Shown here piece by piece: positions 13,565 through 14,881 of a stretch of 64,000 nt of DNA (the first letter of the stretch is position 1; every line of letters begins with the position of its first letter). Below the pieces are notes generated by a model. The model saw only the letters and a list, made by a program, of their open reading frames with translations, was not told the origin of the DNA and did not search any database. The DNA is from an uncultured Marivita sp. (GTDB lineage: Bacteria; Pseudomonadota; Alphaproteobacteria; Rhodobacterales; Rhodobacteraceae): positions 248,001-312,000 of the forward strand of contig NZ_CANKYW010000002.1 in assembly GCF_947488135.1 (NCBI RefSeq), read 5' to 3'. The position numbers were made by a program, and so were the translations under genes.

Positions 13565-14194
13565 ATGACCCGCGCTCATATCCCTGGCATCATCGCGATG
13601 GCGCTCATCGTGCTGGCGTCGAACATCCTTGTTCAATTCCTGTTCGGAAACTGGCTGACCTGGGGGGCGTTCACCTACCCGCTGGCCTTCCTTGTCACCG
13701 ACCTCATGAACCGCCTCTACGGGCCGAGTGCCGCCCGCCAGGTGGTGTTTGCGGGCTTCATCGTTGGAGTGTTCTGTTCGCTTGTCGGCACCCAGATCCA
13801 AGGGGAGTTCGGTCCGTTGGTGACGTTCCGGATCGCGCTGGCGTCCGGGCTCGCGTTCCTGACAGCGCAGCTCATGGATGTTGCGATCTTCGACAAGATG
13901 CGTAGCGGTGTCTGGTGGCGCGCGCCTTTGGCCTCCACGCTGATCGGCGCGTCGATTGATACCGCGCTGTTCTTCAGCATCGCGTTCTCCGGCGCTTTGA
14001 CCTTTATCGAGCCCGAAAATGATGTGTCCTGGGCAGGCGAGATGCTGCCGCTTCTGGGGGCCGGGCCGATTGTACCGCTCTGGGTGTCGTTGGCCGTCGC
14101 GGATTGGATGGTGAAAATCGCCTTGGCCTTGATCGCACTGATACCTTTTCGACTCATCGTGCTTCGATTTCGCGAAAACTCGGCGTTGACGTAA
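13565..14194 (+). CDS. yhhQ: VUT family queuosine-precursor transporter (YhhQ-like)
   Basis: A 209-residue membrane protein of the vitamin-uptake-transporter/YhhQ family, which imports the queuosine precursors preQ0/preQ1. About six membrane helices are visible. Typical blocks are TYPLAFLVTDLMNRLYGPSAAR and GTQIQGEFGPLVTFRIALAS, and an aspartate-bearing helix QLMDVAIFDKMR. The start at 13565 (MTRAHIPGI) follows GGGAG at 6 bases. An upstream in-frame extension (from 13475) would translate through the leader hairpins and is rejected. The substrate is inferred from the family. Confidence 0.87.
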   Translation: MTRAHIPGIIAMALIVLASNILVQFLFGNWLTWGAFTYPLAFLVTDLMNRLYGPSAARQVVFAGFIVGVFCSLVGTQIQGEFGPLVTFRIALASGLAFLTAQLMDVAIFDKMRSGVWWRAPLASTLIGASIDTALFFSIAFSGALTFIEPENDVSWAGEMLPLLGAGPIVPLWVSLAVADWMVKIALALIALIPFRLIVLRFRENSALT

Positions 14195-14253
14195 GAAAAC
14201 TGTTGCACCGTGGGCAAACCCTGTCACGCTGAAGGTGCGTTTTATCAACAGCT

Positions 14254-14326
14254 GAAAGGAGGTGATCCAGTGTCGAGAGAGGTATTGGAGAGAGGTGTCG
14301 GAACAGTTCGAGAGGCACACATCTAG
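14254..14326 (+). CDS. 18-residue ORF behind a Shine-Dalgarno complementary to 17 nt of the 16S 3' end
   Basis: GAAAGGAGGTGATCCAG (14254-14270) is the exact reverse complement of the 3' end of bacterial 16S rRNA (CTGGATCACCTCCTTTC). Seven bases after AGGAGG is a GTG at 14270 opening an 18-codon frame, MSREVLERGVGTVREAHI, that stops at TAG 14324-14326. The interval given includes the SD; the frame itself is 14270-14326. The peptide is charged and matches nothing I recognise. The extreme SD and optimal spacing argue for real ribosome loading, but a ribosome-binding RNA rather than a functional peptide is equally possible. Confidence 0.5.
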
Positions 14327-14379
14327 GGCAGCCCCTGGGTGATGAACCCATCGAATTGGTGTGGAACCTAACCGGACCC

Positions 14380-14386
14380 CACCTCC
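14380..14386 (+). promoter_or_regulatory. internal anti-Shine-Dalgarno sequence
   Basis: CACCTCC is the exact complement of GGAGGTG at 14258-14264 in the same transcript. Pairing would close off the super-SD of the 18-codon ORF when the intervening region folds. It lies between the small ORF and the terminator. Confidence 0.45.
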
Positions 14387-14396
14387 GTAAGTCTCG

Positions 14397-14424
14397 AAGG
14401 GTCGCCACATCGGCGACCCTTTTT
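14397..14424 (+). terminator. strong Rho-independent terminator after the 18-codon ORF element
   Basis: AAGGGTCGCC (14397-14406) pairs perfectly with GGCGACCCTT (14412-14421) around the 5-base loop ACATC, followed by TTT. It ends a transcript of roughly 170-200 nt just before arfB, so the upstream element is probably an independent small RNA/mRNA. Confidence 0.8.
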
Positions 14425-14449: not shown

Positions 14450-14881
14450 ATGATCATGCTCAAGATTTCAGACAGCATCACGATCGAGGACTGGGAACTG
14501 ACGGAACAGTTCATCCGGTCCTCCGGCCCGGGCGGTCAAAACGTCAACAAGGTGTCGACCGCCGTGGAACTGCGGTTCGAGGCCGAGCGGTCGCCGAACC
14601 TGCCCGGTCCAGTGAAGGCCCGGTTGCGCCGCATTGCGGGTCGGAAATGGACCAAAGAAGGTGCGCTGGTCTTGCAGGTGGACGAGACCCGATCACAGGC
14701 GCGCAACCGCGATATCGCGCGAGATCGTCTGAAAGAGATGATCGTGCAAGCGTTGCGCCCACCAAAGCGCCGCGTGCCAACGAAGCCGACTCTCGGGTCG
14801 AAAAAGCGGCGCTTGAAGGCGAAGAAAGTGCGCGGCGAGGTCAAGTCGCTGCGCGGACGGGTCGACCCAGACGGAACCTGA
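14450..14881 (+). CDS. arfB: alternative ribosome-rescue factor ArfB (YaeJ, peptidyl-tRNA hydrolase)
   Basis: Releases peptides from ribosomes stalled without a stop codon. The GGQ catalytic motif is in SSGPGGQNVNKV, near residue 26-28 from the ATG at 14456. The C-terminus is a long basic tail (from about KPTLGSKKRRLKAKKVRGEV) that in ArfB enters the empty mRNA channel. ATG codons at 14444, 14450 and 14456 are all possible; the family start (MLKISDSITI) favours 14450 or 14456. Length about 141-143 residues is typical. It lies directly after the terminator of the 18-codon ORF element, which is notable because both relate to the ribosome. Confidence 0.92.
   Translation: MIMLKISDSITIEDWELTEQFIRSSGPGGQNVNKVSTAVELRFEAERSPNLPGPVKARLRRIAGRKWTKEGALVLQVDETRSQARNRDIARDRLKEMIVQALRPPKRRVPTKPTLGSKKRRLKAKKVRGEVKSLRGRVDPDGT

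Follow-up and report, generated by a model that had tools for sequence, protein, structure and literature searches.

What is the role of a Shine-Dalgarno (SD) sequence that is complementary to 17 nt of the 16S rRNA 3' end and yet precedes a reading frame of just 18 codons? The question is raised by a compact unit (14254-14424) in the window, i.e. the whole stretch of 64,000 nucleotides analysed here, which belongs to an uncultured Marivita sp. (Rhodobacteraceae). An earlier note offered three roles for it: a ribosome-sequestering small RNA, a sensor of ribosome availability or a leader peptide for the control of the adjacent arfB. We tentatively favour the reading in which the unit represents a ~180-nt stand-alone small RNA, the Rhodobacteraceae form of an Alphaproteobacteria-wide set of short-ORF sRNAs that includes Rfam CC2171, gated by the 16S tail and able to capture or report free 30S subunits; that all of these parts hold jointly seems to us slightly less than an even chance.

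Anatomy of the element

Direct reading of the window returned the 17-mer, the SD, the GTG, the ORF, the CACCTCC, the terminator and the repeats at precisely the positions where the earlier note had placed them (Table 1). The AGGAGG core (14257-14262) is followed by 7 nt and by the GTG at 14270, and the terminator (located by a custom script, and absent from the output of a simple scan) consists of AAGGGTCGCC-ACATC-GGCGACCCTT (14397-14421), with 10 perfect pairs and a T run that extends to 14424. The automated scan of the window reported no promoter; the putative one listed in Table 1 agrees in position with a TTGACA-N16-CANNCT block that visual inspection showed ahead of most Rhodobacteraceae-type elements. 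Upstream of elements of this type (e.g. L075, L148) an inverted repeat, CACAAAATCTGTG, also recurs between the -35 and -10 regions; it is operator-like in appearance and degenerate in the window. The direct repeat GAGAGAGGT (14275-14283 and 14288-14296) lies inside the ORF, as had been claimed, but is not kept as such in the relatives inspected and is no conserved feature; in the window, the anti-SD is predicted to pair alternatively with either copy.

Table 1. Features of the element and of its neighbouring genes (positions are those of the window)
Feature	Position	Strand	Basis
VUT/queuosine precursor transporter family gene, upstream	13565..14194	+	PF02592 97.9 bits, TIGR00697 95 bits
Putative sigma-70 promoter: TTGCAC (14203-14208), 16 nt, CACGCT (14225-14230)	14203..14230	+	inferred
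16S-tail complementary site including the SD, GAAAGGAGGTGATCCAG	14254..14270	+	read in the sequence; duplex -35.0 kcal/mol
SD strand (GGAGGTG) that pairs with the anti-SD (14380-14386) in the closing helix	14258..14264	+	7/7 pairs in 41/43 elements
Predicted hairpin H1, locking the start codon (14266-14274 : 14281-14289)	14266..14289	+	MFE fold and pair counts
18-codon ORF VSREVLERGVGTVREAHI, GTG start, TAG stop (14324-14326)	14270..14326	+	direct reading
TCGAGA in the H1 stem/loop, complementary to TCTCGA (14392-14397) just before the terminator	14273..14278	+	position equals that of the RF01867 long-range helix
Predicted alternative partner of the anti-SD region with the first 40 nt blocked: GGAG 14287-14290 : CTCC 14383-14386, GTCGG 14297-14301 : CCGGAC 14372-14377	14287..14301	+	constrained folds
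Predicted helix P2: codons 12-14 (14304-14311) : 14351-14358, around the stop codon and a CAG-loop hairpin (14318-14344)	14304..14358	+	fold and partner-swap test
Internal anti-SD CACCTCC	14380..14386	+	direct reading and pairing counts
Intrinsic terminator	14397..14424	+	direct reading and custom script
arfB (ribosome rescue hydrolase), ~31 nt past the terminator	14456..14881	+	NF006718 182.7 bits (cut-off 100), PF00472 79 bits

Distribution and relation to CC2171

The presence of the element in related genomes, on which the earlier note had made its proposal depend, was confirmed. The exact core AAAGGAGGTGATCCANTG was found in 71 of the 149 family genomes, at one site per genome (a reversed control pattern produced zero matches in the same 149), and the 20-mer core at <=2 mismatches in 116 of them, leaving 33 with no match at that level. 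Within the phylum sample, the shorter core AAGGAGGTGATCCNRTG was present in 68 of the 135 alphaproteobacterial genomes (27 of the same family and 108 of the same class), a count that may include non-elements (in G170 the match lies away from that of RF01867, and G574 has two), and in 1 of the 263 other Pseudomonadota. This sole non-alphaproteobacterial match (G490) proved to be an ordinary gene start and was rejected as a sign of spread beyond the class. Five core-less genomes (taken as Rhizobiaceae) had no match at <=3 mismatches either. In a scan of named genomes, among the at least 119 matches listed, 112 were alphaproteobacterial, 3 were labelled only as 'Proteobacteria' and 4 came from MAGs labelled otherwise (taxa being assigned by label and name). 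The element set used for comparison (n = 169) was drawn from 180 loci, 11 of which were left out, either for lack of the exact GAAAGGAGGTGATC motif or because the stretch came to its end; some of its members are identical or nearly so (e.g. L004 and L107).

Several loci deserve separate mention. In the MAGs of an uncultured beta proteobacterium (L134, ~3415+) and of a member of Nitrosomonadales (L158, ~3074+) the 15-mer precedes GTGAGAGACCA, after which come a short ORF and a terminator; the two are alike, differ from the alphaproteobacterial types and may represent a betaproteobacterial counterpart. In a Phycisphaerales MAG (L077, reverse strand, ~1239 counted from the start of that strand) a gene that looks, by eye, like a shikimate-kinase-type kinase is directly preceded by the same SD together with a 12-codon ORF and a terminator, either by chance or as a further counterpart.

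That no described family has this layout, as had been stated, did not hold. The RF01867 'CC2171' covariance model aligned end to end with 14246-14420 (35.9 bits, E 3.2e-5, with 3.5 kb searched), which makes CC2171 a detectable relative even though the score misses the gathering cut-off of 75 bits. Throughout 289 genomes of the class the same model reached E 1e-3 in 61 and the cut-off in 9, and in 14 control genomes it produced a match in Caulobacter vibrioides only. Judged by its sequence, the window element is a real and conserved relative of the catalogued sRNA CC2171, diverged to below the threshold.

The two share an identical 5' block (GAAAGGAGGTGATCCAGTGTC), a similar length and a terminal terminator; TCGAGA:TCTCGA in the window is a candidate for the long-range helix of CC2171 between the segment that follows the start and the one that precedes the terminator, and a short ORF also occurs in 7 of the 9 above-cut-off members (the 7 that are in the element set). 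The window element differs in that it has another ORF sequence, an anti-SD placed after the ORF and not inside it, and a start codon predicted to lie in a local hairpin. A related observation comes from Azospirillum sp. B21 (L142, ~6757+), where CATGGA faces a TCCATG ahead of the terminator, an arrangement that would preserve the long-range helix. Rfam types RF01867 as sRNA, the Rfam 15 table credits the family with one additional covarying base pair, and a screen of Mesorhizobium huakuii contains a 215-nt product annotated CC2171, taken here as an RNA-seq transcript (PMC5596092); our literature search found no function for CC2171. The anatomy described here (16S-tail site, self-locking fold and conserved frame) is well supported and sharper than the Rfam catalogue entry.

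Complementarity to the 16S rRNA tail and the short reading frame

The 17-mer GAAAGGAGGTGATCCAG is unique in the window's genome at <=1 mismatch, and by our own estimate the chance of an exact occurrence in 2 x 4.47 Mb is ~5e-4. Since the window's own assembly gave no match for the 16S gene, the complement was checked in other genomes: GCGGCTGGATCACCTCCTTTC was matched in 2 of the 10 family genomes searched (G075, in 4 copies and with the exact element too, and G148, in 1 copy) and had no match in the other 8 (the window's included), in which the rRNA genes are probably missing or masked in the data. The 17 nt described earlier as complementary to the 16S 3' end are matched by these two tails, as well as by GGCUGGAUCACCUCCUUUCU, which stands in an oligonucleotide table for S. 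meliloti (PMC6943124).

The full tail:site duplex amounts to -35.0 kcal/mol versus about -9 for AGGAGG, and the modelled net energy of opening the folded RNA (mean of 42 Rhodobacteraceae-type RNAs) to -20.6 kcal/mol for the full 18-nt tail versus -7.4 for the canonical 9-nt anti-SD. Hence, the bases outside the SD core look like toeholds through which the 16S rRNA could open a locked RNA, although they would not be strictly necessary in energetic terms, since the canonical anti-SD binds favourably on its own. SDs that exceed the canonical core are also described for Staphylococcus aureus, where the source presents them as the species' mode of translation initiation (PMC13009471); here, in contrast, exact carriers have one site per genome, on a separate RNA that is predicted to lock itself. 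In 32 family genomes (by our count) GGTCC stands in place of GATCC, a variant that would retain the 16S pairing by wobble (-34.4 vs -35.0 kcal/mol) if the tail is the usual one; in the one GGTCC genome in which this tail was sought (G140) it had no match. The extension is weakened in a few relatives, among which G148 (GTGCTTCAG, -27.4 kcal/mol) keeps an unchanged 16S tail.

The region of the 16S 3' end covered by the complementarity is the one where maturation enzymes act, and the fact that almost exactly the tail is spanned would suit a factor that acts in the maturation or quality control of the 16S 3' end and pairs with the rRNA instead of a working 30S. We consider such a role very improbable: the base 5' of GAAAGG is the A needed to pair with the next U in just 14 of the 169 elements, the upstream CAAC mismatches the precursor extension printed for S. 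meliloti (PMC6943124), and a conserved start, frame and stop would be unnecessary for it.

An ORF of 12-32 codons follows the site in 165 of the 169 elements, versus 32% and 31% for the other two frames. The groups of elements were built from peptide patterns, and the Rhodobacteraceae group is 18-codon by construction; with three similar elements from outside it (18, 20 and 24 codons) added, exactly 18 codons are found in 43 of 45 Rhodobacteraceae-type elements, and the same length recurs in 29 of 32 sphingomonad-type ones. Genomes of this family also contributed L026 and L030, whose ORFs differ (26 and 31 codons). The stops of 41 distinct Rhodobacteraceae-type sequences are spread over TAG (23), TGA (13) and TAA (5), and across 68 distinct ORFs of the remaining mixed types a GGATC motif keeps a constant phase in 23 of its 30 occurrences despite differing codon positions. 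Bradyrhizobium and its relatives (L106, L117, L122, L126, L149, L170, L175) carry a 14-codon version, VSxxKRCHLAGIAR, whose ORF contains the two 16S-like pieces with their order swapped (first TCACCTC and after it TGGGATC).

The synonymous bias that had been anticipated for the 18 codons materialised in the Rhodobacteraceae set as a modest excess (synonymous share of 0.386 in frame vs 0.272 and 0.285 out of frame; BLOSUM score highest in frame, 0.011 vs -0.635 and -0.459), and was absent from the sphingomonad set (0.238 in frame vs 0.389 and 0.469) and from the W-motif set (W-containing, Hyphomicrobiales-type; 0.269 vs 0.421 and 0.272). Variability was near equal at the three codon positions (0.235, 0.263 and 0.240 in the Rhodobacteraceae; 0.270, 0.296 and 0.296 in the W-motif set). 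The codon-usage score of the 18-codon ORF is very low (0.15% of 16,939 CDS segments are equally low); as the other two frames score alike, we read it as a non-coding-like composition and discarded rare codons as a device for slow translation.

These data bear on the possibility that the RNA is a small messenger with the peptide, a regulatory micropeptide, as its product. Conserved start, stop and frame, the strong SD, the top in-frame scores of the Rhodobacteraceae set and the case of Azospirillum L142, where the same start opens a 59-codon ORF with a signal-peptide-like stretch, would agree with it; two sets lacking synonymous excess, peptides that differ from order to order and codon use that resembles non-coding sequence make it, in our judgement, an improbable account. 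It seems that start, frame and stop are retained with at most modest selection on the peptide, and because the frame is kept with a synonymous excess in just one of the three sets, translation appears to outweigh the peptide. Among novel sORFs of S. meliloti, SEP1 (23 aa, pI 4.18) is reported with top translation efficiency (PMC10117765); an identity with SEP1 was not established, as the 23-aa forms found here have a pI of 5.36-6.88 or more, according to type (5.36-6.5 for the Mesorhizobium-like ones). In Caulobacter, a Ribo-seq study reports intergenic ncRNAs in general as untranslated (PMC4117421).

Predicted fold, neighbouring genes and proposed role

The minimum free energy (MFE) folds predicted for the Rhodobacteraceae type place the SD (GGAGGTG) against CACCTCC and the GTG inside a hairpin. 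All 7 SD:anti-SD pairs can form in 41 of the 43 elements that have CTCC (44 examined), with 4 of the 7 pairs fixed by the CTCC anchor used to locate the anti-SD; in every one of 10 slid registers the number fell to 0 of 43. These counts bear out, also across relatives, the earlier view of a compact unit (SD, ORF, anti-SD and terminator) in which re-pairing can close the SD. For H1 (8 pairs tested), 8 pairs form in 29 of 44 elements, 7 in 12 and 6 in 3, and slid controls reach <=5. Compared with dinucleotide shuffles, the SD:anti-SD helix was stronger than >=95% of them in 15/42 elements of the Rhodobacteraceae type, in 9/39, 6/22 and 8/30 of three other groups and in 0/28 sphingomonads. Going by the modelled folds, the closed helix is clear in the Rhodobacteraceae type only; in other orders the anti-SD is weaker and placed elsewhere, often within the ORF.

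With the first 40 nt blocked (as by a ribosome), the anti-SD region is predicted to pair with codons 6-11. For this alternative, GGAG:CTCC is possible in 40 of 41 elements and the complete set of 5 GTCGG pairs in 32 of 41 (the window's copy requires a bulge); L006, which fails the count, has GGCTGG facing CCAGCC in the helix's place. The partner-swap test of codons 6-11 against the anti-SD region was weak (78/2000 permutations as good), and the predicted co-fold of the window RNA with the full 16S tail contains TCGAGA:TCTCGA and GAGGU:anti-SD, unlike the blocked-start fold. Helix P2 gave 0/2000 permutations as good in both groups tested (Rhodobacteraceae, n = 41, and sphingomonad types). Swapping codons 2-7 against the pre-terminator segment in 159 elements gave z = -15.5 (0/2000), and within groups 0/2000 in two of five, 6/2000 in one, 34/2000 in the Rhodobacteraceae and 544/2000 in the sphingomonads (untestable there); as codons 8-13, which served as a control segment, likewise reached significance in three of the five groups, the test is non-specific in those three. 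We stress that swap tests overstate independence because the elements are related by descent, and that in the mixed group 'oth' they are not truly within-clade. Elements with no detected terminator (2 sphingomonad, 3 HypA, 1 other) were excluded from terminator-based tests. Since MAFFT misaligned the variable region, RNAalifold failed to retrieve the Rhodobacteraceae fold from these alignments, and per-sequence folds and partner-swap tests were used instead.

The fold also serves to weigh a trans-acting sRNA, in which the anti-SD segment (CTAACCGGCCC..CACCTCC) would repress mRNAs and the 5' SD would be a lock opened by the ribosome. CTCC is present in 43 of 44 Rhodobacteraceae-type elements, and anti-SD sRNAs with CCUCCUCCC loops (SmelA075 and SmelA099) are known in alphaproteobacteria (PMC3927594); they and the alpha-r8 RNAs SisA-D share an anti-SD-like stretch with our element, and SisA-D a Rho-independent terminator as well (PMC3927594, PMC12559287). 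In these RNAs, however, the motif sits in loops or is single-stranded, where either one RNA has three or four such loops or one genome encodes four sibling RNAs, and the accessible passages of the sources make no mention of a matching super-SD. Here the anti-SD is predicted to lie in a helix in both closed and open folds, and not exposed in hairpin loops as in the CCUCCUCCC-loop sRNAs; nearly all elements offer it a strong intramolecular partner in both states, and other orders have a weaker anti-SD elsewhere. We thus hold action in trans to be unlikely.

The position of arfB directly downstream was confirmed (NF006718, 182.7 bits), and its generality was not. Of 45 Rhodobacteraceae-type loci, 37 (34/42 plus 3/3 similar ones) have the gene downstream and in the same orientation, and a transporter gene of the same cluster as the window's lies upstream of 40 of 42 Rhodobacteraceae-type elements and of 2 similar ones. 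The estimated gap between terminator and arfB is <=50 nt in 16 of the 26 loci measured, which leaves little room for a promoter, so that in Rhodobacteraceae arfB may depend on read-through. This would agree with a leader or attenuator that senses ribosome supply through translation of the short ORF and sets terminator read-through into arfB. On the other hand, arfB was downstream in 0 of 124 other elements (in the DNA searched around each), lies upstream and divergent in L113 (Hyphomonadaceae), and neighbouring genes vary among clades; the one candidate antiterminator pairing considered (stop+20 x terminator 5' arm) gave no signal in five groups (1524/2000 as good in Rhodobacteraceae). Attenuation of arfB, and with it the leader peptide suggested earlier, was rejected as a general role on these two grounds (synteny and the negative pairing test); we give it little probability, and the arfB link is probably a local arrangement. 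The rnTrpL RNA of S. meliloti likewise carries a very short ORF (trpL, 14 codons) on a small RNA (PMC10117765); it is leaderless, whereas the window element has a maximal SD, no downstream gene conserved across clades and no signal for the one antiterminator pairing considered.

Capture or sensing of ribosomes, the other two roles put forward for this DNA, is compatible with the anatomy. From the observed sequence, distribution, pairing patterns and frame we reason that the element may be a short-ORF sRNA that is gated by the 16S tail and serves to capture or report free 30S subunits, a function that we advance with somewhat less than even confidence. The RNA probably captures or senses ribosomes because it combines the 16S-tail match, a tiny reading frame and a self-locking fold. 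In such a scheme the free RNA would fold shut, with the SD held by its internal anti-SD copy and the start codon by H1, and codons 2-6 could also pair just ahead of the terminator. GAAA and ATCCAG, which flank the SD core, would serve as toeholds for the 16S tail; the tail of a free 30S would invade, displace both locks and allow translation of the short ORF to begin. The released anti-SD would then re-pair within the ORF, with codons 6-11 when the start region is occupied and, in the window, perhaps also with codons 4-5 when the tail alone is bound. Given that the peptide varies between orders whereas start, frame and stop persist, the useful event would be the capture and passage of a ribosome and not the peptide. 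Most likely the RNA would hold or report free 30S.

A broader version, in which the element is a class-wide riboregulator with the 16S 3' tail of free 30S as its ligand, toehold strand displacement as its switch and translation of a throw-away ORF as its read-out, appears doubtful to us. Were it true, alphaproteobacteria would possess an RNA that gauges idle ribosomes or acts as a sink for them, and gauging or sequestering free 30S would connect ribosome supply to translation in bacteria directly through an RNA; the two-state fold makes this model testable with short mutants. An RNA typed as sRNA can conceal a conserved and apparently translated frame, and a catalogued sRNA for which we found no function now ranks among the more widespread RNA genes of an entire bacterial class.
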